In this document: piece by piece, positions 1-24,748 of the stretch
Layout of the letters: each line of letters starts with the position of its first letter
How positions within the stretch are numbered: the first letter of the stretch is position 1
Source: a virus
Direction: 5' to 3' (one strand)
DNA: 24,748 bases
IMG/VR virus record: IMGVR_UViG_3300010885_004093
Span: 1-24,748 of that record
Notes under the pieces: model-generated
Seen by the model: only the letters and a program-made list of their open reading frames with translations
Database searches by the model: none
What the model was told of the DNA's origin: nothing
Made by a program: the position numbers and the translations under genes

Positions 1-122
1 GCAACAGTAATCCAAATACTTTTTACGTTCAAATTCCCGGCGAAGGTGTTTTGGCTTCTACAGGTTTGTATTTAACGACAAGTACGGGCACAGTAACCGG
101 GATCACGGTGTTCTATGGCTAA
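1..122 (+). CDS. 3' end of an upstream gene, probably head module (partial)
   Basis: The window opens inside a reading frame that runs from base 3 to a TAA at 120-122, giving 39 visible residues that end in GITVFYG. The segment is rich in Thr, Gly and Val with alternating hydrophobic residues (STGLYLTTSTGTVTGITVF), which suggests a beta-structured virion protein. It overlaps the ATG of the next gene by 8 bases, the same tight packing seen downstream, so it belongs to the same transcription unit. From memory, short proteins ending this way sit just after the major capsid gene in related phages; that placement is an inference. The start and most of the protein lie outside the window, so no function can be assigned. 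Confidence 0.6.
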   Translation, partial: NSNPNTFYVQIPGEGVLASTGLYLTTSTGTVTGITVFYG

Positions 123-438
123 GTCACCTGCATGGACACGCAAAGAAGGGAAGAATCCGAAAGGCGGCTTGAACGCCAAAGGACGGGCTTCTTACAACGC
201 AGCGAATCCCGGGAAACCGGGGTTGAAACGTCCTCAACCCGAGGGCGGCAGCAGGCGAGACTCTTTCTGCGCCCGTATGAAAGGGATGAAAAAGAAATTG
301 ACGAGCGCCGAAACAGCAAGGGATCCCGATTCGAGGATTAACAAGTCCTTGAGAGCTTGGAACTGTGCTGAAGGCGGGTATGTCACCAAAGCTGATGGTT
401 GCGCTACCAAAGGTAAAACGAAAGGCAGGTTTGTGTAA
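115..438 (+). CDS. small basic phage protein with C-terminal KGKTKGR tag
   Basis: A 107-residue very basic protein. The N-terminal motif PAWTRKEGKNPKGGLNAKGR followed by ASYNA, and a central SFCARMKGMKKKLTSAETA, match a small phage family I recall as DUF6321; function is unknown. The C-terminus, CAEGGYV then ADGCATKGKTKGRFV, is not part of that core as I remember it and resembles the ends of the proteins at 439-813, 1004-1375 and 1385-1771. The ATG at 115 overlaps the upstream stop by 8 bases. Its place among structural genes suggests a minor virion or assembly component, perhaps nucleic-acid binding given the charge, but nothing in the sequence proves this. Confidence 0.85.
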   Translation: MAKSPAWTRKEGKNPKGGLNAKGRASYNAANPGKPGLKRPQPEGGSRRDSFCARMKGMKKKLTSAETARDPDSRINKSLRAWNCAEGGYVTKADGCATKGKTKGRFV

Positions 439-813
439 ATGGCAACAAATGCTGAAAAACGCGCTAAAAGACAAGCAGAAATTGAATCGTACGGCGATGA
501 GTCTGGGACATCGTATCGGACTTTAATGAGTTTAAAAAACGATCCTTCTGACAGATTGCAACGTGCAGTTGTAGGCGGCGGAACCTACGGAACAGAACTA
601 AGTTCTGGTGCTTTGGACGCTAGAGAAAAAGCAGCTGCTTTTGGAAAACTGGGATCAATAGACTCTGATAAAGCAAAAAAAGCAGGACGTGAAGCCGCAG
701 CAGAAGAGCGTCGCGAGGCTCGTGGCATGGCAAAAGGTGGCAAAGTCTCCAGTGCTTCCAGCCGTGCAGATGGTTGTTGCATCAAAGGCAAGACCAAAGG
801 CAGGATGGTTTAA
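439..813 (+). CDS. small hypothetical protein with C-terminal CC-KGKTKGR tag
   Basis: A 124-residue protein of unknown function. The first 90 residues are charged and probably helical (an AREKAAAFGKL segment, then KKAGREAAAEERREAR), with a Gly-rich patch VGGGTYG in the middle. A hinge MAKGGKV follows, then the tag ADGCCIKGKTKGRMV. The last 21 residues are almost identical to the end of the protein at 1385-1771 (only Ile/Val differs), while the bodies do not look alike. The ATG directly follows the previous stop and the TAA is directly followed by the next ATG, so translation is probably coupled. Confidence 0.85.
   Translation: MATNAEKRAKRQAEIESYGDESGTSYRTLMSLKNDPSDRLQRAVVGGGTYGTELSSGALDAREKAAAFGKLGSIDSDKAKKAGREAAAEERREARGMAKGGKVSSASSRADGCCIKGKTKGRMV
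736..809 (+). repeat. 74-bp direct repeat copy A encoding the C-terminal tag
   Basis: The copy at 736-809 matches 1694-1767 at 65 of 74 positions with no gap, counted by eye. It encodes GGKVSSASSRADGCC and KGKTKGRMV in both genes. Differences are nearly all at third codon positions, and only Ile/Val changes in the protein, pointing to duplication followed by selection on the peptide. Confidence 0.9.
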
Positions 814-1020
814 ATGACCGAGCATACAGACAATGCAAAGAATGTAATGGACGTTGTGGCAGTGTTTACCACGATTGGTACGTTTTTGGACTTGCTCACC
901 CCCGTATTTGGTTTGATCGGTGCGGTGGTGGGTGTCATGCGCATTTATGAAATGGCTACAGGCAAAGAGTTCTTCACGTTGTTCCGTAAAAAGAAAGACG
1001 ATGATGCCGAGCACGAGTAA
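814..1020 (+). CDS. small two-segment membrane protein, holin-like
   Basis: A 68-residue protein. After a polar N-terminus of about 12 residues come two adjoining hydrophobic stretches, roughly residues 13-26 (VVAVFTTIGTFLDLL) and 28-42 (PVFGLIGAVVGVMRI). Then comes IYEMATGK and a highly charged tail KKKDDDAEHE. This size, two-helix hairpin and charged C-terminus fit class II holins, and the R-I-Y-E-x-x-T-G-K end resembles small phage holins I remember. It lies in the head and connector part, far from the clear lysis cassette at 10983-12856, so it may instead be a membrane-active accessory. The previous TAA is directly followed by this ATG, and an AGGATGG lies just upstream as a possible ribosome site. 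Confidence 0.75.
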   Translation: MTEHTDNAKNVMDVVAVFTTIGTFLDLLTPVFGLIGAVVGVMRIYEMATGKEFFTLFRKKKDDDAEHE

Positions 1021-1375
1021 GAAACAGCACAAATTCATGGAAGCGGTGGCTCACAACCCAGCGTTTGCCAAGAAAGCCGGAGTCCCACAATCTGTGGGCA
1101 AGGATTTTTCAACTGCCGACAAAGGCAAAACTTTTAAAAGAGGTGGTGATATGGCTAAAGCAAACCCTTTCATGGAAATGATTGCCAAGAAAAAAGCAGC
1201 GGCAGCAGGTAAAAAATCAGAGATGCCTTCTAAGATGGGCAAACCTGTAATGAAAAAAGGCATGGATACTGCCAAAGACGGCCTGAAGAAAATGGCTAAA
1301 GGCGGTGGTGTTGAGGCCAAGGGTAAAACCAAAGGCACAATGATTAAGATGAACAAGGGCGGCAAAGCCTGTTAA
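1004..1375 (+). CDS. small basic composite protein with KGKTKG tag
   Basis: The protein has 123 residues. I chose the ATG at 1004 (one codon after another ATG at 1001) because the resulting start MPSTSKKQHKFMEAVAHNP matches a small phage family of about 45 residues (SKxQHxFM...VGKDFxxADKGK) that I recall as DUF3008-like. A longer frame reaching back to 920 would overlap the membrane protein by 101 bases and is rejected. The second half, from MAKANPFMEM at 1151, is a different Lys/Ala/Met-rich module with its own AGAGGTGG just upstream, so an internal start is possible. It ends with MAKGGGV, EAKGKTKGTMI and NKGGKAC. Function unknown. Confidence 0.8.
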   Translation: MPSTSKKQHKFMEAVAHNPAFAKKAGVPQSVGKDFSTADKGKTFKRGGDMAKANPFMEMIAKKKAAAAGKKSEMPSKMGKPVMKKGMDTAKDGLKKMAKGGGVEAKGKTKGTMIKMNKGGKAC

Positions 1376-1384
1376 GGAGTAGTC

Positions 1385-1771
1385 ATGGCAAAAGAACGAA
1401 TTGTTTCTAAAAAAGAGTTGGAAGAATCTGGCCTTAGCTTGCGCGATTTCTTGAACAAAGAAAAAGGCTTGACCCGCAAACCGCCTGAAGGCATTAAACG
1501 CGAGTACAGACCCAGAGACGTTGCCGATCAGGAAACCAAAAAAGCAATGTCCGCAGAAGCAGGCATGTCACGCGGCACGCGTAACTTTGCTGGTGCTGGT
1601 CGTGGCGAGTCTGGCGGCGCTAGTGCAGACATGCTTTCTCGTTTCAACGCTGGCAAAGAAGGCTATGACGAAGCAGGAACTTCTTACAAAAAAGGCGGCA
1701 AAGTTTCCAGTGCTTCCAGCCGGGCAGATGGTTGCTGTGTCAAAGGCAAAACCAAAGGTCGGATGGTATGA
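1385..1771 (+). CDS. small hypothetical protein with C-terminal CC-KGKTKGR tag
   Basis: A 128-residue charged protein. AAGGAG at 1374-1379 precedes the ATG at a good distance. The body (ELEESGLSLRDFLNKEKGL, then EYRPRDVADQ and a Gly/Ala/Arg-rich stretch) is not recognised. The C-terminus, YKKGGKV then SSASSRADGCCVKGKTKGRMV, duplicates the end of the protein at 439-813 at both protein and DNA level. The body also contains Y-x-E-A-G-T-S-Y, near the D-E-S-G-T-S-Y of that protein, so the two may be old paralogues whose cores diverged. The stop overlaps the next ATG (ATGA). Confidence 0.85.
   Translation: MAKERIVSKKELEESGLSLRDFLNKEKGLTRKPPEGIKREYRPRDVADQETKKAMSAEAGMSRGTRNFAGAGRGESGGASADMLSRFNAGKEGYDEAGTSYKKGGKVSSASSRADGCCVKGKTKGRMV
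1694..1767 (+). repeat. 74-bp direct repeat copy B encoding the C-terminal tag
   Basis: Second copy of the repeat at 736-809, lying at the 3' end of the gene at 1385-1771. It stops exactly before the ATGA overlap with the following gene, so the repeat unit coincides with a coding module and not with an intergenic element. Confidence 0.9.
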
Positions 1772-2046
1772 GACCTTCACGCGGCATGGGCGACATCAAC
1801 CCGTCAAAGATGCCGGGTAAGAAGACGATCAAACGCAAGGATGATCCGAACAAAGTCGCCATGTACGCAGAGGGTGGCAAAGTCAATGCTGCTGGCAATT
1901 ACACAAAACCCAGTCTTCGCAAGAAGATTGTGGCGCAAGTGAAGGCCGCAGCAACGCAAGGAACAGGCGCTGGCCAGTGGTCAGCAAGGAAAGCTCAGTT
2001 GGTAGCCAAGAAATACAAGGCTGCTGGCGGGGGTTACAAAGATTGA
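1768..2046 (+). CDS. small basic two-module protein (DUF5872-like C-terminus)
   Basis: A 92-residue basic protein. The ATG at 1768 overlaps the preceding stop in ATGA; a longer frame from 1732 would intrude on the tag of the upstream gene. It has two modules joined by the hinge MYAEGGKV (residues 31-38): an N-terminal MRPSRGMGDINPSKMPGKKT and a C-terminal domain with LRKKIVAQVKA, GQWSARKAQLVAKKYKAAGG. The G-Q-W-S-A-R-K-A-Q motif is, as I recall, the hallmark of a small domain (DUF5872) found in phages and large DNA viruses, with no known function. Its charge would suit nucleic-acid binding; that is inference. Confidence 0.85.
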   Translation: MRPSRGMGDINPSKMPGKKTIKRKDDPNKVAMYAEGGKVNAAGNYTKPSLRKKIVAQVKAAATQGTGAGQWSARKAQLVAKKYKAAGGGYKD

Positions 2047-2276
2047 AAGCGCCGCAGCAATCCCTCAAAGATTGGACTGCACAAAAGTGGAGAACCAAAA
2101 GTGGCAAACGCTCTTCTGACACAGGCGAAAGATACCTTCCTGAAGCTGCAATCAAAGCTCTCAGCCCTTCTGAGTACGCTGCGACAACGCGTGCAAAACG
2201 CGCTGGCAAAAAAGCCGGAAAGCAATTCGTGAAGCAACCACCCAAGGTAGCAAAGAAAACGGCAGGGTACAGATAA
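2043..2276 (+). CDS. small basic conserved phage protein, TTG start
   Basis: A 77-residue basic protein. I place the start at TTG 2043, which overlaps the preceding TGA. The reading from there begins MKAPQQSLKDWTAQKWRTKS, and proteins beginning with this D-W-T-x-Q-x-W-x-T-K-S-G-K pattern are a compact family I recall in aquatic phages, followed by S-x-T-G-E-R-Y-L-P and ending in K-Q-P-x-K-V-A-K-K-T-x-x-Y-R. An ATG at 1977 in the same frame would add 22 residues translated through the 3' end of the previous gene and lacks family resemblance. Function unknown. The stop TAA overlaps the next ATG. Confidence 0.85.
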   Translation: MKAPQQSLKDWTAQKWRTKSGKRSSDTGERYLPEAAIKALSPSEYAATTRAKRAGKKAGKQFVKQPPKVAKKTAGYR

Positions 2277-2449
2277 TGGCAGAGAAATGGATTCAGAAAG
2301 CTATCAAAAAACCCGGTGCGCTGCGTGCTCAGCTTGGCGTAAAAGAAGGTCAAACGATTCCAGCGAAGAAACTTGCAAAGGCTGCGAAACAGCCCGGCAA
2401 AACAGGTCAACGCGCACGACTGGCGCAGACACTAAAGAAAATGAAGTGA
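2276..2449 (+). CDS. very small basic phage protein (57 aa)
   Basis: A short frame encoding 57 residues. It begins MAEKWIQKAIKKPGALRAQL, continues GVKEGQTIPAKKLAKAAK and ends QRARLAQTLKKMK. The ATG overlaps the previous TAA (TAATG), and the stop is one base before the next ATG, so it fills exactly the space between two genes. The W-I-Q-K-A-I-K-K-P-G-A-L-R motif is one I remember from small phage proteins and from mycobacteriophage-type hypothetical proteins. It is rich in Lys and probably helical. Function is unknown; charge suggests contact with nucleic acid or packaging inside the virion. Confidence 0.8.
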   Translation: MAEKWIQKAIKKPGALRAQLGVKEGQTIPAKKLAKAAKQPGKTGQRARLAQTLKKMK

Positions 2450-2450
2450 C

Positions 2451-3380
2451 ATGGCAAACACCTCTGGACAAGCAGGCTTTAATTTAGACCTCACCGAACT
2501 GGTGGAGGAAGCGTTTGAGCGTGCTGGTTCAGAGATGCGCACGGGCTATGACCTCAAAACGGCTCGCCGGTCGTTGAATTTATTGTTTGCTGATTGGGCA
2601 AACCGTGGCATCAACATGTGGACGTTTGAGCAGGGCACGATTACTTTCGAGCAGGGCTTGAACACTTACGCAATCCCCACCGATACGGTGGATTTGCTGG
2701 ATCATGTGATCCGTACCAATGCAAATGTGGCCGCTACCCAGTCTGATTTGACAATCACACGCATCAGCGTGTCCACTTACGCAACCATCCCAAACAAACT
2801 GACCCAAGCCAGACCGATTCAGGTGTGGTATCAGCGTTTGGATGGCCAGAATGCTCCTGCTGGCGTGACTTTGGCAACCACCATCACGTCCACAGACACA
2901 ACAATTACCCTCTCCAGCACCGTTGGTTTGGCCACATCGGGCTACATCACGCTGGGGAGCGAGACAATCTACTACACCTACGTGGACGGCAACGATTTAG
3001 GCGACTGTTTCCGCGCTCAGAACAATACAACTGCCGCAGCGCACACCGCTGGCGTGGCTGTTTACGTCCCCAACCTCCCCAGAATCACTGTTTGGCCAAC
3101 GCCTGACGGCTCCCAGACATACCAGTTTGTGTACTGGCGCATGCGTCGCGTGCAAGATGCCGGTAGTGGTGTGAACGTCATGGACGTACCCTTCCGGTTT
3201 GTGCCTTGTATGGTGGCTGGATTGGCCTACTACATCGCTTTAAAAGTTCCGGGTGGCATGGACAGGCTGCAAGTGTTGAAAGCTCAGTACGACGAGGCGT
3301 GGATGACGGCGGCTGACGAAGATCAGGAACGCGCCGCGTTGCGTCTCGTGCCTAGACAGATGTTCATTGGGGGTGGCTGA
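2451..3380 (+). CDS. adaptor-like connector protein (P22 gp4 type), with inserted module
   Basis: A 309-residue structural protein. The N-terminus is helical (ELVEEAFERAG, then TARRSLNLLFADWANRG at about residues 37-53), followed by a beta region with NTYAIPTD, RPIQVWY, ITVWPTPDGSQTYQFVYWRM and a final helical part VPCMVAGLAYYIALKVPG. This order of motifs (short helices, Y-x-x-P-x-D, P-x-x-x-W, W-P-x-P, Y-x-x-x-Y) is shared with the protein at 4222-4959 and fits tail accessory or adaptor proteins of the P22 gp4 kind, which sit under the portal and close the DNA channel. Residues 139-207 are a separate module also found in the 745-residue tail protein. The start ATG lies one base after the previous stop. 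Confidence 0.7.
   Translation: MANTSGQAGFNLDLTELVEEAFERAGSEMRTGYDLKTARRSLNLLFADWANRGINMWTFEQGTITFEQGLNTYAIPTDTVDLLDHVIRTNANVAATQSDLTITRISVSTYATIPNKLTQARPIQVWYQRLDGQNAPAGVTLATTITSTDTTITLSSTVGLATSGYITLGSETIYYTYVDGNDLGDCFRAQNNTTAAAHTAGVAVYVPNLPRITVWPTPDGSQTYQFVYWRMRRVQDAGSGVNVMDVPFRFVPCMVAGLAYYIALKVPGGMDRLQVLKAQYDEAWMTAADEDQERAALRLVPRQMFIGGG
2865..3071 (+). other. inserted beta module, copy 1 (in adaptor-like protein)
   Basis: Encodes residues 139-207 of the 2451-3380 protein. Key order: T-T-I-T-L-S-S-T-V-G-L, then S-G-Y-I-T-L-G-S-E-T-I-Y-Y-T, C-F-R-A and A-A-A-H-T-A-G-V-A-V. The flanking parts (RPIQVWY before, ITVWPTPDG after) would join into a continuous adaptor fold without it. The same module is at 13522-13749. 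Confidence 0.7.
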
Positions 3381-3769
3381 TGGGTAATCGGTTTGCCAGT
3401 GGCAAAAATTCGATTGCCGAGTGCGACCGCTGCGGCTTTGGGTACAAACTGACGTTACTCAAAAAGCTCGTTGTCAAAACCAAGACATACGACTTGAAGG
3501 TGTGCCCTCAGTGTTGGGAACCAGATCAGCCGCAGTTGCTGTTGGGTATGTACCCAGTGGATGACCCGCAAGGCGTGCGTGACCCACGGCCTGATCTGAG
3601 CTACCAAGTCTCTGGCTTGCTGGCAGACGGGTACAGCGGTGGTGGTAGCCGAGTTTTTCAGTGGGGATGGAACCCAGTTGGGGGTGCATCCAGTTTTGAT
3701 GCTGTTTTGACCCCAAATAACTTGGCGATGGCAGTAGAAATTGGTACAGTTACAGTTGCAACGACATAA
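3380..3769 (+). CDS. zinc-ribbon phage structural protein candidate
   Basis: The 129-residue protein has two CxxC knuckles, C15-D-R-C18 and C42-P-Q-C45, 23 residues apart, with F-x-Y-K-L and V-K-T-K-T-Y-D-L-K-V between them, a classic zinc ribbon. After it come Q-L-L-L-G-M-Y-P-V-D-D-P-Q and R-D-P-R-P-D, and the C-terminus is Gly/Ser/Val-rich and beta-like. Proteins with this ribbon followed by D-P-Q-x-x-R-x-P-R-P-D are frequent beside connector genes in phages, from memory, and their role is unproven. The ATG overlaps the stop of the adaptor gene by one base (TGATG), tying the two in expression. Confidence 0.8.
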   Translation: MGNRFASGKNSIAECDRCGFGYKLTLLKKLVVKTKTYDLKVCPQCWEPDQPQLLLGMYPVDDPQGVRDPRPDLSYQVSGLLADGYSGGGSRVFQWGWNPVGGASSFDAVLTPNNLAMAVEIGTVTVATT

Positions 3770-3779
3770 GGAGTCGATC

Positions 3780-3959
3780 ATGGACAAGAAAGATTTAAAG
3801 CAGGACAAAAAGATGATTGCTGGCGCAGTGCACAAGCATGAGAAAAAGCTGCACCCCGGCAAGCCTCTAACCAAGCTGGCCAAAGGCGGCAAGACCAACG
3901 AAATGATGAAAAGTCTAGGCCGTGGTATGGCCAAAGTTGCAAATCAGCGGGGCAAATAA
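3780..3959 (+). CDS. small basic phage protein (59 aa)
   Basis: Starts at the ATG at 3780, preceded by AAGGAG at 3768-3773; the same frame extends to 3741 but that would overlap the previous gene and lacks a ribosome site. The 59 residues begin MDKKDLKQDKKMIAGAVHKH and include KLAKGGKTNEMMKSLGRGMA. The M-D-K-K-x-L-x-Q-D-K-K-M-I motif is a small phage family I recall, of unknown function. It carries the same A-K-G-G-K hinge as its neighbours but lacks the KGKTKGR tag. Confidence 0.85.
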   Translation: MDKKDLKQDKKMIAGAVHKHEKKLHPGKPLTKLAKGGKTNEMMKSLGRGMAKVANQRGK

Positions 3960-4225
3960 TGGCTAAATTCAGCAAAAAACAAGACGGCAAAGAAGTTGGC
4001 GGTGCTAGCGTCTATGCACAACCACACACCATGTCTGGCAAAGCGGTTGGTGTTGAGTCCAACCCCGGCAAGATGCCAAACCGCAGCAAAGCAGATACGG
4101 TGGATATGAGCATTGGCAGAATCAGTAAGTCTGCGGGTAATGAAGCCGTTAAGACATCCGGCATCAAAGTCCGTGGTACTGGCGCAGCCACTAAAGGTCT
4201 GATGGCACGAGGCCCGATGGCATGA
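3959..4225 (+). CDS. small basic phage protein ending ATKGLMARGPMA
   Basis: An 88-residue basic protein, ATG overlapping the previous TAA (TAATG) and stop overlapping the next ATG (ATGA). Recognisable stretches are HTMSGKAVGVESNPGKMPN, then DTVDMSIGRISKSAGN and the end RGTGAATKGLMARGPMA. The end is a looser relative of the tag in the 115-1771 genes (A-T-K-G-x-x-x-R-G against A-T-K-G-K-T-K-G-R). A family with this S-x-P-H-T-M-S-G-K...R-G-T-G-A-A-T-K-G pattern is known to me from phage genomes just before the adaptor gene, as here. No function is established. Confidence 0.85.
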   Translation: MAKFSKKQDGKEVGGASVYAQPHTMSGKAVGVESNPGKMPNRSKADTVDMSIGRISKSAGNEAVKTSGIKVRGTGAATKGLMARGPMA

Positions 4226-15734: not shown

Positions 15735-17105
15735 ATGACATTTGCAGCCGCACCGTTATTGGTAGAAGGAGCTGTTGCTTCAACCGCAGCAGAGATTATG
15801 ACTGCGGAACAAATTGCCGTAGCAGAAGCCGCAGCGGCGGCAGAAGCTGCACAAGCCGCGCAAGCTGCGCAGGCGCTTCAAGCACAACAAGCTGTTCAAG
15901 CCGCTGAAGCTGCACAAGCCGCGCAAGCTGCACAAGCCGCCCAAACTGGGCAAGCTGCACAAACACTTAATGCCGCCCAAGCGGGTGGCTACGGTGGCAT
16001 TAACAGTCTTGGTGCGGGAGCTGGTGCGGGGGCAGGAACGGGTATTAGTTCAGCAAGCGGTATTGAGCTTTTGTCAAAAGAAGTTGGCTTAAATGCAGAC
16101 CCTACAGGGCTTGAGCAAATCACAAAGGCATTTCAGCAAGCGGAAATAAACAAAGTCCCAATGACGGGGCAGGAGTTTTTAAATAACTCTTTTGCTGGCG
16201 AGGCAACAAGCATACCCGTTACAACGCCCGGTGCACCCCCCGTTTCGCAGCTACCGTCTTTTGATGCCACACAGTACCTCAATTCAACAATGCCCGGCAC
16301 GTTTACTGGTGCTCCTCCTACTGCGCCTGCCCCAACGCTCTACGGTTCTGCACAACCGCCAACACCCCCCAGCATGGGGCCAAACACATTACCGGATATT
16401 ACTGCGCAAACGTCTCCTACGCTCGATTACGGATTTAATCGCCCAGATATGGGCGGTGCAGGTGGTATGCAGCAAGGGTTTGGCAGTACCGGCATGCAAG
16501 CCCGGCTTACCCCAGATCAACTAGTTGGGCCAAACCAGTACTCAATGGCTCAAGGGTTAAATTACCAGTCCCCCTTAAGCGCTTCGGTTAATGCTGCGAC
16601 TCCCGCACCATCTACTGGACTTGAAGGGTTGCTTAATAAAGGTATTGAGTACGCAAAGAACAACCCGTTGTCTTCGCTATCTATGGCTAACACAGCCTAC
16701 AACCTTTTAAATAAACCCAAGCCCTACGAAAAACCAAAATACAAATCTACTTTCAACGCTGGCGCATACTCAGGCTATGAACCTCCCACGCCCAACTACT
16801 ATCGTGCGCAGTATGCACATGGCGGTTTGGCTGATTTGGGCGGTTACTCTGATGGTGGGCGTATGCTCAAAGGCCCCGGAGACGGTATGTCTGACGACAT
16901 TCCTGCGACAATTGCCAACAAGCAACCCGCACGTTTGGCCAACGAAGAGTTTGTAATCCCCGCCGACGTGGTTTCCCACCTTGGTAATGGTTCCTCTGAA
17001 GCCGGAGCCAAACAGTTGTACAAGATGATGGATAGAGTTCGTCAAGCACGTACAGGCACGAAGAAACAAGGCAAGCAAATCAAACCTGAGAAGTACCTAG
17101 CTTAA
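15735..17105 (+). CDS. large internal virion protein candidate with Ala-Gln repeats
   Basis: A 456-residue protein. GAGGAG lies 7-8 bases before the ATG. Residues 1-35 are hydrophobic and Ala-rich, residues 36-80 a run of A-Q-A-A-Q units, then Gly-rich and Pro/Thr-rich disordered parts. The C-terminal 100 residues carry the conserved MLKGPGDGMSDDIPATIANK, ARLANEEFVIPADVVSHLGN and KQLYKMMDRVRQAR, a domain I know from internal or ejection proteins of T7-like and related phages and from some tail proteins. The long Ala/Gln helix may help insert into the host envelope. It contains D-G-G-R-M-L near the conserved domain. Confidence 0.75.
   Translation: MTFAAAPLLVEGAVASTAAEIMTAEQIAVAEAAAAAEAAQAAQAAQALQAQQAVQAAEAAQAAQAAQAAQTGQAAQTLNAAQAGGYGGINSLGAGAGAGAGTGISSASGIELLSKEVGLNADPTGLEQITKAFQQAEINKVPMTGQEFLNNSFAGEATSIPVTTPGAPPVSQLPSFDATQYLNSTMPGTFTGAPPTAPAPTLYGSAQPPTPPSMGPNTLPDITAQTSPTLDYGFNRPDMGGAGGMQQGFGSTGMQARLTPDQLVGPNQYSMAQGLNYQSPLSASVNAATPAPSTGLEGLLNKGIEYAKNNPLSSLSMANTAYNLLNKPKPYEKPKYKSTFNAGAYSGYEPPTPNYYRAQYAHGGLADLGGYSDGGRMLKGPGDGMSDDIPATIANKQPARLANEEFVIPADVVSHLGNGSSEAGAKQLYKMMDRVRQARTGTKKQGKQIKPEKYLA
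15843..15931 (+). repeat. exact 26-bp direct repeat within the Ala-Gln tract
   Basis: The 26 bases at 15843-15868 (gaagctgcacaagccgcgca and six more) recur exactly at 15906-15931, offset 63 bases (21 codons), inside a longer stretch of related gcacaagcc and gcgcaagct units. Such an array can change length by slippage while keeping the frame. Confidence 0.9.
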
Positions 17106-17107
17106 AC

Positions 17108-17515
17108 ATGGCGTTACACCAAATCCACCCAAGCCAGTTGCCGCAAGTGTGGCCTATTGCTGCGCCCTTACTTCAAAAAGCAATTGACCTTGAGCCTGAG
17201 ATGATTACCATTGAGCAGGTGGAATACTCGGTGCGTACTGGCAGGGTGTTTCTGTTGGTGTGGGATGAACCGAATGAAGGTATCACAGGCGCTGTGACTG
17301 TTGAGTTTATGGACTACCCCCGCGAGCGCGTAGCGCATGTCAACTTGATGGGCGGCAAAGGGATAGTCAGACAACATGTGTTTGAAGCTGCCAAAGACTG
17401 GATGCGGAGTTTTGGCGCTACCAAAGCGCAGTGCTGGGCAAGAGGCACGCTGGTTCAGATGTATGAAAAGATGGGGCTGGAAAACACCCATCAAGTAATG
17501 AGGATTGAATTATGA
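17108..17515 (+). CDS. GNAT-like small virion protein
   Basis: A 135-residue protein with an N-acetyltransferase-like outline: MALHQIHPSQLPQVWPIAAP (helix), a beta segment RVFLLVWDE, GITGAVTVEFMDYPRERVAH, a helix VFEAAKDWMRSFGATKAQCW and the end YEKMGLENTHQVMRIEL (K-M-G-L-x-x-x as in the GNAT last strands). The CoA loop is not clear. Proteins of this sort are found among internal virion genes in podoviruses and are probably not active enzymes; this is inference. The ribosome site is weak. The stop overlaps the next ATG (ATGA). Confidence 0.75.
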   Translation: MALHQIHPSQLPQVWPIAAPLLQKAIDLEPEMITIEQVEYSVRTGRVFLLVWDEPNEGITGAVTVEFMDYPRERVAHVNLMGGKGIVRQHVFEAAKDWMRSFGATKAQCWARGTLVQMYEKMGLENTHQVMRIEL

Positions 17516-18684
17516 ATATTGTTAAAAGCTTATATAGCTGGTTGACTGGCGAACGGTTCATCATGTACATGGGTGGCGGTGGCAGTGGCAGTAGCCAACC
17601 AAACACTACATACTCAAACACCTCAAACATTCCTGAGTATGCGCAGCCCTATGTCGAGCAAATGCTTGGCTCCGCGCAAAAAGAAATTTTTAACTACGAT
17701 GCGGCAGGCAACCCCACAAACATTAAGCCGTACAAGTCGTTTAGCTCCAACCCCAACGATTACTTTGCCGGGTTTTCTCCATTACAACAACAAGCACAGC
17801 GGCAAGCGGCAAACATGGGGGTTACGCCTGAAACAGGTATTGCTGCTGGCATGACTGGCGCTGCCGGTATGGGTGCTTTGGGTACGCAGTACGACCCGAT
17901 GATGGCGCGGTCTCAACAGTTTGGCCAACGCCAAGCTGACCAGTACATGAACCCGTACATGCAGAGTGTGGTGAATGTCCAGCAAGCCGCAGCTCAACGC
18001 CAAGCCGACATAGCCAGAACAGGTCGCAATGCACAAGCCACTCAAGCGGGTGCGTTTGGTGGTGCGCGGCAAGCCATTACCGATGCCGAAGCTAACCGTG
18101 CGTTGGCCGACCAACAAAACGCTATTCAAGCGCAAGGTCTCAACACCGCATACACAAACGCGCAGCAACAGTTCAACGCTGACCAAGCACAACGCATGGC
18201 TGCTCAACAAGCCAACATCGGTCAACAACAGTTTGGTGCCACCCTTGGTATGCAAGGACTTCAGACCGGGCTGCAAGCCGCAGGTCAGTTAGGACAGCTT
18301 GGCCAGAATATCTACGGCCAGCAAATGGGCATCAACCAGTTGCAGAACCAGTACGGCGCACAGCAACAAGCGGCAGAGCAAGCAAAGATCAACCAACAGA
18401 TCCAAGACTACGCAACTGCACAACAGTACCCAATGATGCAACTGGCCAACATGAGCGCGTTGACACGCGGTCTGCCTATGCAGTCAGCCACCACGCAGGT
18501 GTATCAAGCCGCACCAAGCGCAATGTCTCAACTGGCGGGTCTCGGCACAGCCGCTTACGGACTGTCTCAACTTGGCGGTCTTGGCGGCACAGGCGCAGTT
18601 GCTGGCAAAGCCAAAGGCGGCGCGATCAAAGAAAAGAAACGCCCAGCCGGTTTGGCTGAGTTGGCCTTGATGAAAATGCAGTAA
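17512..18684 (+). CDS. Gln/Ala-rich internal virion protein candidate
   Basis: A 390-residue protein. It may start at ATG 17512 (ATGA overlap with the GNAT-like gene, MNIVKSLYSWLTGERF) or at ATG 17563 (MYMGGGGSGSSQPNTTYSNT), the latter matching what I recall of the family start. The region IPEYAQPYVEQMLGSAQKEI, FSPLQQQAQRQAANMG is characteristic of phage ejection or internal proteins. Residues about 150-300 are a Gln/Ala-rich coiled-coil (QQAAAQRQADIARTGRNAQA, TQAGAFGGARQAITDAEANR). The C-terminus is a Gly-rich hydrophobic stretch followed by KAKGGAIKEKKRPAGLAELA. It probably travels in the virion and acts at DNA entry. Confidence 0.75.
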   Translation: MNIVKSLYSWLTGERFIMYMGGGGSGSSQPNTTYSNTSNIPEYAQPYVEQMLGSAQKEIFNYDAAGNPTNIKPYKSFSSNPNDYFAGFSPLQQQAQRQAANMGVTPETGIAAGMTGAAGMGALGTQYDPMMARSQQFGQRQADQYMNPYMQSVVNVQQAAAQRQADIARTGRNAQATQAGAFGGARQAITDAEANRALADQQNAIQAQGLNTAYTNAQQQFNADQAQRMAAQQANIGQQQFGATLGMQGLQTGLQAAGQLGQLGQNIYGQQMGINQLQNQYGAQQQAAEQAKINQQIQDYATAQQYPMMQLANMSALTRGLPMQSATTQVYQAAPSAMSQLAGLGTAAYGLSQLGGLGGTGAVAGKAKGGAIKEKKRPAGLAELALMKMQ

Positions 18685-18693
18685 GGAACATTC

Positions 18694-20706
18694 ATGCTTA
18701 CTAACTTAAATAACCTCAAAGATACTTTGTCCGGCATGGACTTGCAGGGTTTGCAAAACTACGCTAGGGTAAACAAGAACGATCCTTACATTGTCTCAAT
18801 GGCACTGTCTATGGCAAACACATTGAAAAAAATGGAGGTTGCCAAAAAAGGGCGAGCTGGAATGCAGCCGCAACCTAAAGTGGTTGACCAACAAATTGCC
18901 CAAATGGTGGCTCCTCCACCACAACAAATGGCTGCCGCACCGCAGCAACAGGCGCTTCCAGAAGATTCAGGTATTGGCCAACTCCCCGCCCAGAACATGC
19001 AGCGCATGGCCGGTGGTGGCATTGTTGCGTTTGAAGAAGGTGGCGACGTGCCGGGATATGCTGGCGGCGTTTATACCGGAGAAGAAGTTCCCTCTGGTGC
19101 AATCATCATGGGTAATATGTACCAAGACCCTGTTACGGGTCAGATGAAACCGCTTCCACAACGAGATGCGTTACCGTTTGGTAATGTGCCAATAAACTAT
19201 GCTGAAAATAAAAGGCTTTACTTAGAAAAACAAAAAGCAGACTTGGCAAATCGTAAAGCCGCAGCAGAAGCCATTATCAACGAAAGTCCCGAAGATTACG
19301 CCCTCAGAAAAGTTACAGAACTCGAAGCCCAAGGCGGTAAGAAGCTGTCACCTGATGCCAGAAACATGGCGATGTCTGGTTTTGTAAAAGAAAAGATGGC
19401 GGGGCAAGTTGGTCGTGGCGAAGCAAGCTACACAAAAGACAGTCAGCTTCCAACACCTGCAACCACTTATACGGGCGCTAAGCCGTTGCCGGGCATGACT
19501 CCGCCCGGACAGTCGCCTTTAAGCGCATTAACTAAGCCTCCCGGTGCTCCCGGAGCTGTAAGCCCTGAAGATGAACACATGTCTGGCATCAACAAATTGA
19601 TTGGTTCTATTCAAACAGCCAGCAGAATGGGGCCGATGACCCCGTTGGATGCAAAAAAGTATTCATACACACCTGCTGAATTTGCAAACATGACCCCTGA
19701 GTTTTTTGCCGATGCTGTAACAAAAGCAATGGGTAAAGATCCTGCAAAAGATCCTTTTGGTGGACAAACAGAGGAGCTAACCAAAACAGCGGTTGCAGCA
19801 AAACAAAACTACAAAGCAGATCTTGAAAAACAGTTTAAAGAACAAGGGCTGGCGTTTGAAGGAACGCTAAAAAAACTGACCGAAAAAGAAGGTCGGATTA
19901 ACACAATGGAAGAACGCAACACAGGCATGGCTTTATTGGAAGCAGGACTGTCTATGATGTCGGGCGAAAGCCCCCACGCACTTGTTAACATTGGTAAAGG
20001 TGCGCAAGTAGGCGCTAAGAAATACTCAGAAGGCATGGCGCAGATCGAGGCTGCGCGAGATAAGCTTGACGACGCTAGGATGAAAATTGAAGAGTTCCGT
20101 CGCAACGAAGCCAACATGAATGCACGTGAAGCGCGTGCTGCACAAAAAGATATTGACGACACCATACATCAAGGCGCTGTTTTAAAGCTAGCGGGTATGC
20201 GCGACGCGTTCAACATGAACAAACAACAGGCTATTGCGTCAGTAACTAACTACGCTCAAATACAGCAGTTTAATATCGGCGAGAAAAACAAAGCGGCAGC
20301 GCAAAACCAATCAACCGCCGCTGGTATTGACACGGCCTATGCACAAATGGCTAATCAAGAGCGTATTAATGCAAGAAGCAACGCTATGCACTTGGGTCTT
20401 GCAAAGTTGGAAGCGCAATACAAAAAAGACAATCCTGCGGCTGGCAGTTTAGGCTTCTACAAACAGCTTGCCAACAATCCAGAAGCTGTCAAAGGCATGA
20501 AGCTGTTCTCCGAAAACTTGGGGCCAGAAGGCAAAGGCTCAGAAGCAATCTTGCTTGATTGGCAGAAAAAGAATCCATTTGAAAAACAGCAGGCGCGTAA
20601 AGCTGACCCTGTTGGATCAGCAATGCTTGATCGTCAATTGCGAGAGCGTGTTTTACAAGGGAGCATCAGCGACGCGCCTGCTGGCAAATTGCTTGACAAA
20701 CAATAA
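18694..20706 (+). CDS. large internal virion / DNA-ejection protein candidate
   Basis: A 670-residue protein. AAGGAA lies 6 bases before the ATG. N-terminal helices are followed by a Pro/Gln-rich spacer and the motif MAGGGIVAFEEGGDVPGYAG (residues 105-124), a marker of phage internal or tape-like proteins. A second marker, LLEAGLSMMSGESPHALVNI at about residue 413, precedes a predicted coiled coil (AARDKLDDARMKIEEFRRNE). The remainder is Ala/Gln/Asn/Lys-rich helix. No lysozyme, protease or transglycosylase motif is visible. Its place between two other large helical proteins suggests a multi-protein ejection complex like T7 gp14-gp15-gp16, though order and sequence are not T7's. Confidence 0.75.
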   Translation: MLTNLNNLKDTLSGMDLQGLQNYARVNKNDPYIVSMALSMANTLKKMEVAKKGRAGMQPQPKVVDQQIAQMVAPPPQQMAAAPQQQALPEDSGIGQLPAQNMQRMAGGGIVAFEEGGDVPGYAGGVYTGEEVPSGAIIMGNMYQDPVTGQMKPLPQRDALPFGNVPINYAENKRLYLEKQKADLANRKAAAEAIINESPEDYALRKVTELEAQGGKKLSPDARNMAMSGFVKEKMAGQVGRGEASYTKDSQLPTPATTYTGAKPLPGMTPPGQSPLSALTKPPGAPGAVSPEDEHMSGINKLIGSIQTASRMGPMTPLDAKKYSYTPAEFANMTPEFFADAVTKAMGKDPAKDPFGGQTEELTKTAVAAKQNYKADLEKQFKEQGLAFEGTLKKLTEKEGRINTMEERNTGMALLEAGLSMMSGESPHALVNIGKGAQVGAKKYSEGMAQIEAARDKLDDARMKIEEFRRNEANMNAREARAAQKDIDDTIHQGAVLKLAGMRDAFNMNKQQAIASVTNYAQIQQFNIGEKNKAAAQNQSTAAGIDTAYAQMANQERINARSNAMHLGLAKLEAQYKKDNPAAGSLGFYKQLANNPEAVKGMKLFSENLGPEGKGSEAILLDWQKKNPFEKQQARKADPVGSAMLDRQLRERVLQGSISDAPAGKLLDKQ

Positions 20707-20723: not shown

Positions 20724-23700
20724 ATGGCTAAATACCTCACACTGCCCGACGGCAACTCGGTAACGATTCGAGAGGGTGAAACGCCTGAGCAAACATGGGC
20801 GCGTGCACAACGCGATTTCCCCAACTCTTTCCCCAAACAACAAACACAAGAGGCCAAACCAGAAACTGGCTTCTTCCCTGCTATGCGGGGTACGTTTGAG
20901 GAAATGAAAGGCCAAGCGGCGCTTACTGCCGGTAAAACTGGCATCATGGATTTACCTGCTGCGGAGAAATACTACAAGCAACAGCAAAAAGAATCTGAAA
21001 AAATCTACAAGCCCACCGAAGAAACTTGGGGGCAAGCGCCTTGGACAAAGCTCAAAGAATTGGCTGGCACGTCCCTGCCGTACATGGTGGCTCCCGCAGC
21101 CGTTGCTGCTGCCGCCCCTGAAGGCCTTGTTATTGGCGCGTTGGCCGCAGGCGTTCCCTCCGCCGCGCAGTTTGTCGGTACTAACTTAGGTCGTCAAGTT
21201 GATGAGGGTAAATCCCTAGCCGAAGCCAGCGGCACAAAAGCCGTTGCAGCAGCCATCCCTCAAGCGGCGCTGGATGTTATTGGTTTGAGATTTATTCCCG
21301 GCCTGAGAAAAGTTTTTGGTGCGGCAGGTAAAGAACTGACCGAAGCAGAAGCCCAAGCCCTACTCAGCCAGACACTGAAACAAAAAGCGGTTGACTACGC
21401 CAAAGCTACTGGCAAAACAATGGGCGTGGAGGGTCTGACCGAATCTGCCCAACAAATTTTTGAGCGTGCTCAAGCCGGTTTGAACATCACTGACGCACAA
21501 GCGCGTCAGGAATACTTTGACAACTTTATTGGCGGTGCAATCCTTGGTGGCGCAATTGCCCCTGCTGGTAGGTTTGTTGAACGCGGAGGCGAGAAACGCA
21601 AAGCCGAAGCCTTGTTGCTCAAGAGCGATCTTGAGAAAAGCAAAACCGAATACGAAGCCGAACAAGAAGCGCGTAAAAAAGCTGCCGCAGAAAAAGCTGC
21701 TCTTGAAAAAGGTGAGCCTACGTTGCTTTCCGCAATGGGCGATGAAACTGTGCAAGGTGAGTACTCACTTTTGCCACAGGCACAATTGCAGAAAAACGCG
21801 CTTGCGTTGGCAACAAAAGCCAACATCCCTGCCGAAAGTCTGCAAGGGATGGATTCCACCGAAATTCTTGCCGCCACAAAACAAAAACTGTCTCAAGACA
21901 TTACAGAAAACAACCGCGTACTACAGTTACTGACAGCCCAGCGCGACATCTTCAGCCAAGCCAACCAAATGGACAGAGTGGCAACACTTAACCGCCAGCT
22001 TGGACAAGTTAAAAAAACAACTGATACCGCCGAAGACCTGTATAAACAAGTTGGCAAACTGGCTGGCCCAGAGTTTGATCCTGACGAAGCAGATGCCAAA
22101 CGCAAACAAGCTGAAGAAAAAGGTGACTTTGAAGCTGCGGCCAAGTATGCAGAACAGTTGCATGCGTGGAACCAAAAGAACTTTGCTATGCGCGACAAGG
22201 TGCGCAGCGAAGCCGCGCCCGGCACAAGCGTTGAAGCAATACCCAAAGAGCAGATGGATTTGTTTGCTCCGGGCTATGAAACCAAACAAGACAAAGCCGA
22301 GCTCGAAGACATTGAAAGCGTGTACCAAGGCGAACGTGGAACTGCAAAAAGCCGCGAACGCTTAGAAGCTTTGAAGACAAAGCCATCAGCAGACGAGCTG
22401 ATGATGCAGCAAGAAGAAGAGTACCAACGCGATTTGGATCAGCGCGATATTGTCAAGAGCATGACGCTGTACCCAGAACAGTACTTGGCTTCGTTGCGCA
22501 AACAGATTAGCCAAGACGTTGCCGAAGCAATTGACAGCGGTGTTGTTAACGCCGGTGTGCGCAAAACGTTGGGTTTGACTGGACTCGGTAATGCCAACCT
22601 TGATTTGAGAAATACAAACCAAGCTAAAGCCGCAGAAACAATTCTTCGTCAAAAGATGGAACAGCACAAAGCTGAACGCGATGCGTTTGCTGCTGCGCAC
22701 CCAACAGAAGATTCTTTGTACGACGCTGACGGCAAACTAAGACCAGAGACGTTGGAACAGCTTCGCCGTGATGTTCAAGCCGAAGAAGTTAATCGCTTGT
22801 TACAGCACATTCGTGAAACAGGCACACAGCAACGCGCTGATATTGTTCAAGCCAAAATACCGGAAGCAGAAGCTGACTTAACAGCTAGCAACCATATGGT
22901 GGCCGCTAAACAACAAGAAGCCCTGCAAAAAACCTACTACAACAATTTGCTCACACGGTTGGAAGACATCAATCGCCAAGTAAATCAAGAGGGCGTGGAG
23001 CCGCATCCCGTTGATAGAAAAAGCGCTGAAGACCTTGGCCAAAAATATATTGATGCTGCGCTCAAAACTGCGGCGCATCGTCGGGCTGCTCAGGGTGTTA
23101 CCCCGCTTAGCAAAGATAAAGTTGAACAAGCTCGTGTTGAGTTGCAAAAACTTGTCAGTGAGTTAATCACTCGCAGCATGGCAGGTAAAACCACAGAGAC
23201 CGAAAAAGTCACAGGCCGTATTGTGAAGCCAAATGTTGGCATAACACAAACGCTTGAAAAAGAACACTATGAAGATGGTGCTTTGAAATGGAAAGGTTTT
23301 TGGAAAGAACTCAAAGGTAAGAACGCTGCTGCGTTCAAAAAATACAACAAACGCATAGATCAACTGACTAACCGCTTGGTTGATTTGCGCTCTCGCATGG
23401 AGCGCCTTAAAAAGTTTGTTGACCCGTATGAGAAGGCTTACAAAGCCATGCCCGAAGGTAACCCCAACGGCACTGAAGAACAACGCCGCCAATACGATGC
23501 ACGCGAAGCGGCCATGCTCAAGTTCAAAGAAGTTCAAAAACCTTTGTTGGATTTGGCCAAACAAGATGCAGGCGTTACCGATGTGCTGGTCAAGACTTTG
23601 CAAGAAGTTAAACAAAAACACGTCGAGTACACAACTTTTGATAGAGACGTACGCGCATTGAGAGAGCGTCCGTTTGCCGCGCCAGCTCGTGCCCAAGAAG

Positions 23701-24748
23701 TTATTTTTGAAGAACTCAACAAAGTTATTGATAGCTTGTCTCCCAAAGAAAAAGTTGAGATTACGCCAGAAGGCAAAATTAAATTTAGACGCGAAGGCCA
23801 AGAAGTCAAACGCGTCGAACAAAGCCCTATTAACTACGCCCAAGAATTACTGCGCCGCATTTCCGAAGCCAAAAAAGAAATGGAGGCTATCAAAGGTAAA
23901 CACGGCACGGCCAAACGCAAGGGCGAATTGGAAAACCGCGTGCAGGCTTTAACCACCAGCTACAACAAGCTGATGGAAGAACAAGAAGGCAAAGTTAAAA
24001 AACCCGCTGTTGATACCCAACAAGCCAAGGCTGAAGAAGGCCAAGACTTGGAAAAAGCAAATCAAAAGCTGGCACGCGCAATTAACGATGCAAAAGCCGA
24101 GCTGGAAGAAATTGCTACAGGCATTCGTCCAGAACCAGCCAAAGAAGTCAAAGTTGGAGAACGTCCTCCGGTCAAGCGTGCTCTGGATGCCAGCCAAACT
24201 CGCCGCATGGGCGAGTTAAATAAGCAGCTCAACCAGTTTGAATCTGAGTACGTCAAGAACAATGCACGGCTTAAAGAACTGGGTATGTACGGCGTGCCGG
24301 GCGGTGTTGACTTTGAAACAAGAGACATGTTTGAGCAAGCGCCAGAAATGGGCGTTATCTTTGACACGCCCGAACAGTACTTGGGTTCAGCCAAGTCTGG
24401 CAAGATTTCTAAGCTGCGTAAACAACTGCGTGATGTACAAACACCTACCCCCATAACAGTTGAAGAACTGCAAGGCGCACGCACTGATTACGTTGCCGCA
24501 CAAGAGGCGTATGCTAAGTTGCGCAAAATGGCTCCTGCCAAAGCCAACATGGAAGCGTACTATGACGCTTTGCGTTTTCATTACGAAAATGCTGCACATA
24601 AATTAGAAAAATCTGCTAACTTTGCAAAGCTGCCAGAAGACTCACCGTACAAAATAGAAGTTGCACAACTTAAAGAAAAAATTAAAAAAGTAGAAGCCAA
24701 GCGCAAAGCATGGCGTGACATGCGTGCCAAAATGGCCGAGTTCCCTGA
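20724..24748 (+). CDS. giant internal virion / ejection protein, 5' part (partial)
   Basis: Open from ATG 20724 to the end of the window, 1341 codons with no stop. It begins MAKYLTLPDGNSVTIREGET, then PEQTWARAQRDFP, a small N-terminal domain common on phage and polyvalent proteins. Residues about 115-155 are hydrophobic (YMVAPAAVAAAAPEGLVIGA), and FIGGAILGGAIAPAGRFVER near residue 267 is a Gly-zipper; both could enter a membrane. From about residue 285 on the chain is highly charged and mostly helical, with many K/E/A/Q heptad-like stretches. No catalytic motif is seen in the visible part. By size and position it resembles the longest ejection protein of podoviruses; the enzymatic end may lie beyond the window. 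Confidence 0.8.
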   Translation, partial: MAKYLTLPDGNSVTIREGETPEQTWARAQRDFPNSFPKQQTQEAKPETGFFPAMRGTFEEMKGQAALTAGKTGIMDLPAAEKYYKQQQKESEKIYKPTEETWGQAPWTKLKELAGTSLPYMVAPAAVAAAAPEGLVIGALAAGVPSAAQFVGTNLGRQVDEGKSLAEASGTKAVAAAIPQAALDVIGLRFIPGLRKVFGAAGKELTEAEAQALLSQTLKQKAVDYAKATGKTMGVEGLTESAQQIFERAQAGLNITDAQARQEYFDNFIGGAILGGAIAPAGRFVERGGEKRKAEALLLKSDLEKSKTEYEAEQEARKKAAAEKAALEKGEPTLLSAMGDETVQGEYSLLPQAQLQKNALALATKANIPAESLQGMDSTEILAATKQKLSQDITENNRVLQLLTAQRDIFSQANQMDRVATLNRQLGQVKKTTDTAEDLYKQVGKLAGPEFDPDEADAKRKQAEEKGDFEAAAKYAEQLHAWNQKNFAMRDKVRSEAAPGTSVEAIPKEQMDLFAPGYETKQDKAELEDIESVYQGERGTAKSRERLEALKTKPSADELMMQQEEEYQRDLDQRDIVKSMTLYPEQYLASLRKQISQDVAEAIDSGVVNAGVRKTLGLTGLGNANLDLRNTNQAKAAETILRQKMEQHKAERDAFAAAHPTEDSLYDADGKLRPETLEQLRRDVQAEEVNRLLQHIRETGTQQRADIVQAKIPEAEADLTASNHMVAAKQQEALQKTYYNNLLTRLEDINRQVNQEGVEPHPVDRKSAEDLGQKYIDAALKTAAHRRAAQGVTPLSKDKVEQARVELQKLVSELITRSMAGKTTETEKVTGRIVKPNVGITQTLEKEHYEDGALKWKGFWKELKGKNAAAFKKYNKRIDQLTNRLVDLRSRMERLKKFVDPYEKAYKAMPEGNPNGTEEQRRQYDAREAAMLKFKEVQKPLLDLAKQDAGVTDVLVKTLQEVKQKHVEYTTFDRDVRALRERPFAAPARAQEVIFEELNKVIDSLSPKEKVEITPEGKIKFRREGQEVKRVEQSPINYAQELLRRISEAKKEMEAIKGKHGTAKRKGELENRVQALTTSYNKLMEEQEGKVKKPAVDTQQAKAEEGQDLEKANQKLARAINDAKAELEEIATGIRPEPAKEVKVGERPPVKRALDASQTRRMGELNKQLNQFESEYVKNNARLKELGMYGVPGGVDFETRDMFEQAPEMGVIFDTPEQYLGSAKSGKISKLRKQLRDVQTPTPITVEELQGARTDYVAAQEAYAKLRKMAPAKANMEAYYDALRFHYENAAHKLEKSANFAKLPEDSPYKIEVAQLKEKIKKVEAKRKAWRDMRAKMAEFP

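Follow-up and report, generated by a model that had tools for sequence, protein, structure and literature searches.

A portable C-terminal peptide on interchangeable proteins of Pam1-type podoviruses, a candidate virion-loading tag

Phage T4 carries a capsid-targeting sequence (CTS) on divergent internal proteins (PMC9026906), encapsulin cargo-loading peptides are short, usually C-terminal and bound by an HK97-fold shell to collect cargo (PMC8346489), and in phage P1 a short N-terminal stretch of DarB directs the protein, and also a reporter, into the capsid (PMC9024508). Here we describe a C-terminal peptide, hereafter the tag, that ends small proteins with unlike bodies in an uncultured virus, IMG/VR record IMGVR_UViG_3300010885_004093; the window analysed is the whole record, a linear fragment of 24,748 bp. 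We favour, at a probability of roughly 0.5, the reading that the tag is a C-terminal virion-loading (cargo) tag for interchangeable proteins. By analogy, the tag appears nearest in position and design to the encapsulin cargo-loading peptides, and by the tests made it is a member of neither the T4 CTS nor the encapsulin peptide family. In the literature searched with the peptide strings and the names DUF6321 and Pag-Yong1, no description of the motif was found.

A first-pass annotation of the window had pointed to four open reading frames (ORFs; 115-438, 439-813, 1004-1375 and 1385-1771) with related end peptides, and all four were recovered together with their peptides. The same end peptide closes 115-438, 439-813 and 1385-1771; the genes are adjacent, on the same strand, and abut or overlap by a few bases in an operon-like manner. 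A tag search of the whole record returned exactly these three copies, with E-values (7e-15, 4e-14 and 2e-5) that exclude chance. The fourth protein, 1004-1375, does have the tag near its end, but in a decayed form from which the ADG half is gone (GGGVEAKGKTKGTMIKMNKGGKAC); among relatives of this gene, 101 of 169 carry the tag. The similarity reported earlier between two copies at the DNA level also held: those of 439 and 1385 are 88.5% identical over 78 bp, and against these two the 115 copy reaches 75-80% identity over 35-48 bp. Copies as close as those of 439 and 1385, which stem from a recent duplication or conversion, are rare: within loci, only 3% of tag pairs with unlike bodies reach ≥85% DNA identity. 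A supposed looser form of the peptide in 3959-4225 (GTGAATKGLMARGPMA) was not demonstrably the same motif, with a profile-profile probability of 1.8% and 0 of 142 relatives matching the tag profile. We thus rejected its GTGAATKG motif as a tag, given the missing profile support and a fixed single-copy family of its own; the 142 relatives have the fixed C-terminus RGxGAATKGxxxRGPMA, with a head-tail gene just downstream.

The tag comprises ~28 residues, more than had been recognised at first, with the consensus [MYF][KA]xGGxVxSASKRADG[ICV]Ax[KR]G[KH]T[KR]G[KRT][MI][VIC], derived from 254 unique tags after setting aside the tag that retrieved each locus, which avoids selection bias. Conservation is highest at Gly5, Gly6, Gly16 and Gly21 (98-100%), followed by Thr23 (96%), Gly25 (95%) and Asp15 (88%); at the basic positions K and R interchange, and H or L can also stand at position 22. 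The commonest form continues for exactly three residues past the core (RMV, KMV, RFV, KIC), shorter forms end in ...GKTRA and longer ones add KMxxGGKAC. The cysteine pair seen in the window, previously linked to cross-linking, is not conserved: its first position is I in 48%, C in 41% and V in 9% of the tags and its second is A in 84% and C in 2%, so that cross-linking or metal binding by the pair is no property of the tag. Two tags use the same codon at identical residues in 44% of cases when taken from different loci and in 47% when taken from the same locus; synonymous codons are thus near-randomised, indicating that selection acts on the peptide. Two further candidates were rejected. DGCAIKGKT reads as GxxxxGKT, the Walker A motif of P-loop nucleoside triphosphatases, but its Lys is replaced by H in 8% and by L in 3% of the tags and nothing follows the motif, which lies at the C-terminus and is disordered in AlphaFold2 models. 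The adenovirus-protease consensus is (M/I/L)xGG, and [MYF][AK]xGG is in the wrong register for an adenovirus-type Gly-Gly protease substrate, its hydrophobic residue being one position too far upstream.

As the first-pass annotation had proposed, the peptide is portable. It ends the DUF6321 domain, a phrog_16759-type N-terminal domain, a beta-rich domain and >100 groups of bodies without detectable similarity; rather than one homologous full-length family, several independent families are tagged, and at least three bodies are clearly independent. Single-linkage clustering (blastp E<1e-4) yielded 130 body groups, 90 of them singletons, a count that depends on sensitivity and is an upper estimate for fast-evolving disordered proteins. 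DUF6321, a known family in cyanophages and pelagiphages (525 INPHARED records), is the most instructive case. The 115-438 body passes the curated PF19846 cutoff (67.9 bits vs 28.5), and DUF6321 proteins occur both with (35) and without (127) the tag. Untagged copies mostly end in ...LRAWNC or ...KRWKC, and the 35 tagged ones run on from the same point, with KDGGYV...ADGCAIKGKTKGRYI or with one of two other versions of the tag. On DUF6321 the tag is an addition, joined exactly at the domain end, in what amounts to a natural addition/loss experiment. In a low-confidence AlphaFold2 model of 115-438 (mean predicted local distance difference test score, pLDDT, 60) the body is helical and tag residues 86-107 are disordered (pLDDT <50). 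The phrog_16759-type domain also forms the N-terminal part of jumbo-phage proteins with a virion-structural annotation, and 1004-1375 additionally matches phrog_22033, 'virion structural protein' (E 1.4e-10). The beta-rich domain of ~100 residues is predicted at pLDDT 80-90 over most of its length, with a disordered variable linker and tag, and has no fold match in the PDB; in this family (L239:2001-2519 and homologues in L237-L244, L073 and L178) the tag was present in all ten relatives seen.

Searches of the tagged representatives against Pfam, PHROGs and NCBIfam returned only the phrog_16759-type domain and chance matches, the 439-813 body had no PHROG or Pfam match, and sequence searches of the PDB with the tag, the bodies, the major capsid protein (MCP) and a second structural protein gave nothing useful, with weak matches only for the tail adaptor (7awz) and the 12859 protein (9nwi). 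By charge-hydropathy, 85% of tagged bodies and 22% of other ORFs are predicted to be disordered; the tag is net basic and the bodies are K/R-rich. A second portable module, [VI]SKKELEESGLSLRDFLNKERGLTRR, occupies residues 3-32 of 1385-1771 (window 1391-1480) and recurs at varying positions in 38 proteins of the collected loci (L294, L275, L308 and others), of which 26 are tagged and the others have different C-termini; in L294 it sits in a phage with a different gene set.

Because the collection scans were motif-based, the counts of loci and tags that follow are lower bounds, within which the confinement to one lineage holds. Scanning with degenerate DNA that encodes ADGC..[KR]G[KR]T[KR]G retrieved at least 120 IMG/VR stretches, and a search with the 439-813 protein added at least 80 loci, aligned mostly through the tag; a looser regular expression found 472 tags in these 201 loci, and a profile search of all ORFs of the collected loci, duplicated sub-contigs included, 578 tagged ORFs. 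Of 577 matching ORFs, 526 carry the tag at the C-terminus, and an N-terminal position is confined to one 62-residue family. The protein of this family, encoded just downstream of the tagged genes, carries a related core (M-x-[YF]-x-x-[SA]ADGIAKKGKTEGKNLGDSGP) in 51 ORFs, including L204:15992-16180; in the window and in relatives its position is taken by a protein lacking the core. In larger contigs (n = 16, 39-67 kb) all tags fall together within a few kb, with none elsewhere at E ≤ 0.01. Across ~85,000 bacterial and archaeal genomes (GTDB), a stricter pattern hit three contigs only, the tag thus being neither a bacterial trait nor a common one of prophages; two of these are phage contigs with the same arrangement in one lake metagenome-assembled genome and the third is apparently a chance match. 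The two, CAIMTR010000163.1 and CAIMTR010000124.1 (L234, L235), belong to this phage lineage and were apparently binned into the gammaproteobacterial genome LinL1_bin-0432. INPHARED gave no match when searched with the window tags alone; via synteny, the only carriers found there were the cultured Planktothrix cyanophage Pag-Yong1 and MinM2 and Pra-JY27, the latter two being records of the same length as Pag-Yong1 with identical matches. In Pag-Yong1 the tag lies at the end of UMO75986.1 (...RDGCAKRGRTKGRFI), between the minor capsid and portal-adaptor genes. Our impression from the few annotated relatives is that tagged contigs come mostly from lakes.

All tagged proteins collected belong to one phage lineage and to one slot of its virion operon, whose genes are co-directional. 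The order is terminase, portal, GroES-like, scaffold-type, u79, MCP, cement, pre6321, DUF6321 (with or without tag) and a small membrane protein; then the phrog_16759 protein (with or without tag) and one to several tagged orphans, phrog_17747 and phrog_14910; and finally the tail adaptor, a Cys-rich protein, in some cases the N-terminally tagged 62-residue protein, the GTGAATKG protein and a head-tail protein (Table 1). Among the 135 loci with both DUF6321 and the adaptor, 345 of 360 C-terminally tagged ORFs lie in the slot from pre6321/DUF6321 to the adaptor (mean 2.6 per slot), and 130 slots hold at least one; the 27 tagged loci without an adaptor match carry other members of the same gene set. 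The MCP matches Phage_capsid_4. The adaptor, with matches in DSL-LC04, CRP-902 and Manatee Spring phage, relates the virus to DSL-LC04 (whose adaptor is annotated as Pam1-type), HTVC023P/027P, CRP-901/902 and Pag-Yong1. The likeness to the Pam1-type podoviruses Pag-Yong1, DSL-LC04, HTVC023P and CRP-901/902 extends to the gene order from MCP to adaptor. At the position of the slot Pag-Yong1 has a single tagged protein, the other Pam1-type podoviruses gave no tag match, and the multi-gene tagged cassette is seen in the uncultured relatives. Two insertion-like genes were seen near the slot, one with a weak glycosyltransferase-like match below the cutoff (L221:9386-10129, Pfam E ~1e-3) and one resembling by eye a GIY-YIG homing endonuclease (L208, G005 contig 53512-54237).

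Table 1. Features of the window that bear on the tag, its slot and the predicted ejection region
Position	Strand	Feature	Basis
115..438; tag 367-435	+	DUF6321 domain protein with the tag after its natural end (...SLRAWNC, then AEGGYVTKADGCATKGKTKGRFV)	PF19846 E 1.2e-18; untagged relatives end in RAWNC or RAWKC
439..813; tag 727-810	+	Tagged protein with orphan body, tag MAKGGKVSSASSRADGCCIKGKTKGRMV	ORF and tag search
814..1020	+	Small predicted membrane protein, untagged, in 'holin-like' slot gene position	Gene order; family matches weak only
1004..1375; tag 1292-1372	+	phrog_16759-type N-terminal domain, basic linker, decayed tag MAKGGGVEAKGKTKGTMIKMNKGGKAC	phrog_16759 E 4.6e-20
1385..1771; tag 1685-1768	+	Tagged protein with N-terminal helical-looking module VSKKELEESGLSLRDFLNKEKGLTRK (~1391-1480), tag YKKGGKVSSASSRADGCCVKGKTKGRMV	
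1768..2046	+	Conserved basic protein phrog_17747 flanking the slot, MYAEGG element, never tagged	
2043..2276	+	Conserved basic protein phrog_14910, right border of the slot	
2276..2449	+	Small basic protein phrog_20603, slot border	
2451..3380	+	Pam1-type tail (portal) adaptor, marks the downstream slot edge	Matches annotated adaptor/tail adaptor proteins
3380..3769	+	Conserved Cys-rich structural-operon protein	
3780..3959	+	Small basic protein with LAKGG, without tag core; in the place of the relatives' 62-residue protein	
3959..4225	+	Single-copy family ending RGTGAATKGLMARGPMA; likeness to tag not established	
15735..17105	+	Predicted internal/ejection-region protein with YAHGG	
17512..18684	+	Predicted DNA ejection protein	phrog_4287 'DNA ejection protein' E 3.8e-6
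18694..20706	+	Predicted ejection-region protein with MAGGG	

The bodies in the slot are exchanged fast. Between loci with adaptors 80-90% identical, only 19% of tagged bodies had any blastp relative in the partner slot, and the flanking genes were present in both partners in 89-100% of pairs, a large contrast that, since locus pairs are not independent, is a description and not a test. The share of tagged bodies with a relative was 12-17% at 50-80% adaptor identity and 58% at 90-99%. As a control for short length, small flanking proteins were detected at the same blastp threshold in 70-100% of all pairs.

Other proteins of these phages share the front half of the tag, [MYF][AK]xGG. In six large contigs and the window, tagged proteins contained it 25 times (shuffles, 1.2), untagged slot neighbours 16 times (shuffles, 1.9) and the predicted ejection region downstream of the tail gene 29 times (shuffles, 5.3), vs twice in the remaining 67,000 residues (shuffles, 5.5). 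The ejection region was set by its distance from one tail gene and its borders are approximate; in one contig (G009), the region is present twice and the adaptor also matched as a tail gene. The related element [MYF]AxGG[LIVM] is recurrent in predicted ejection proteins (window 15735-17105 and 18694-20706; G004, G005, G006, G009 and G014), for example as MAGGGIVAF, YAEGG and MAAGGM, and hardly occurs in the remainder of the genomes. Beyond these genes, a very long ORF without Pfam match runs off the end of the window (20724-24746), and the corresponding region of G009 (L206, 46856-60907 of the contig) holds a gene of 4,683 residues, perhaps for a giant injected protein. At each end of the contig of L204-L207 (IMGVR_UViG_3300011335_000278) lies a copy of the ejection/tail region, the two having diverged; the contig is possibly a chimeric assembly.

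The possible packaging or sorting role put forward in the first-pass annotation is consistent with the virion-operon slot and with the Gly-Gly signature common to the tagged and the predicted ejection proteins. If the tag loads virions, Pam1/GP4-type podoviruses would keep a cassette of 1-5 small genes between the capsid/cement genes and the tail adaptor. Each would encode a free-standing protein whose variable body, disordered in most cases and a folded domain in some, is followed by a flexible Gly-Gly linker and then by the tag. A conserved component of the virion or prohead (MCP, scaffold, portal or adaptor) would recognise the tag, and the protein would thereby enter the particle during assembly. 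Quick swapping of bodies is what one would expect if the proteins enter the host at infection, where they may act, for instance, against host defences. More tentatively, and at somewhat less than even odds, the whole might operate as an encapsulin-like system, in which a universal C-terminal tag loads any protein and the capsid-neck slot holds ever-changing effectors delivered with the DNA.

Like the T4 CTS, the tag is a short common terminal peptide on divergent, small, basic proteins, several to a phage and with unlike bodies (mean 2.6 tagged ORFs per slot); those of T4 are found in the phage head, where the tagged proteins would also be expected if the tag loads virions. The T4 CTS, however, is an N-terminal stretch of ~10 residues that works by way of the core and is cleaved off by gp21, whereas the tag is C-terminal (N-terminal in one family), spans ~28 residues and is unrelated in sequence, with no prohead protease seen in the interval scanned. 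The encapsulin design, a terminal peptide joined by a flexible linker to a complete protein, is found here in DUF6321 with and without the tag and in the alignment and model of domain, linker and tag; encapsulins, unlike the present system, are bacterial or archaeal compartments with enzyme cargo and a different peptide sequence, and binding of the tag to a shell would be the presumed counterpart. The P1 DarB signal differs from the tag in being N-terminal, in one protein and not common to many bodies.

Several points weigh against a loading tag. No virion proteomics or mass-spectrometric data were found for any tagged protein, and no receptor was identified for the tag. The known phage capsid-targeting sequences are N-terminal. 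The portal-to-MCP interval of one relative, scanned with Pfam and PHROG, other regions being outside the scan, contained no prohead protease, so that a T4-like cycle of targeting and cleavage is not supported. Searches of domain libraries revealed no recognisable anti-defence or enzymatic domain in the cargo bodies. Finally, the amino acid identity of tags is 0.69 within and 0.68 between genomes, giving no sign of co-evolution with a lineage-specific receptor.

The probability left over from virion loading is divided among docking on the outside, nucleic-acid binding, and sorting or processing unrelated to the virion. The least unlikely of these is that the tag fixes accessory proteins to the outside of the particle, at the cement layer or the adaptor/neck, as an exchangeable decoration: genes for cement-type and tail-adaptor proteins directly flank the slot, but the Gly-Gly signature is common with predicted ejection, that is, internal proteins, and the basic, disordered bodies are unlike usual decoration proteins. 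Next in order, and also improbable, the tag could be a basic tail that binds the packaged genome or RNA, its bodies being proteins that condense or protect the DNA. A net basic peptide, K/R-rich bodies and small basic proteins as slot neighbours would suit such a role. Plain nucleic-acid binding, which the first-pass annotation had suggested, is nevertheless a poor fit, because it is G, G, D, G, G and T that hardly vary, whereas the basic positions interchange and position 22 takes H or L; a purely electrostatic tail needs no ADG/GKT frame or fixed C-terminal place.

We consider less probable again that the tag is a signal for sorting, stability or processing outside the virion, be it recruitment to replication sites or Gly-Gly cleavage with a discarded propeptide. 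Double glycine is a common protease site, and the Gly-Gly before the core is 98-99% conserved; against cleavage or sorting of this kind stand the restriction of tagged genes to the virion operon, the lack of a protease in the one portal-to-MCP interval searched (Pfam/PHROG), the misfit of the register MxxGG to (M/I/L)xGG and the N-terminal version of the tag, which a discarded propeptide would leave unexplained. It is very improbable that the bodies descend from one ancestral tagged gene and are unlike in appearance only. Homology would be hard to see in short, disordered, fast-evolving bodies, and the 1385-type and some other bodies do have a short module in common, but DUF6321 and the phrog_16759-type domain exist elsewhere untagged, and a beta-rich domain is tagged too. 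Scarcely credible, finally, is a DNA-level recombination cassette, in which the tag-coding DNA is conserved and serves body swapping: despite the 88% DNA identity of two window copies and a slight within-genome excess of pairs at ≥85% identity (3.3% vs 1.0%), such a cassette is largely refuted by codon use, the synonymous positions being near-randomised and the reading frame and C-terminal position preserved.

Should the tag load virions, candidate virion cargo could be recognised by a simple sequence criterion in many uncultured phage contigs, where such genes otherwise pass for short 'hypothetical proteins'. The tag would then point to a pool of proteins that are exchanged rapidly and are possibly directed at the host, and would constitute a small portable loading tag for short-tailed phage.

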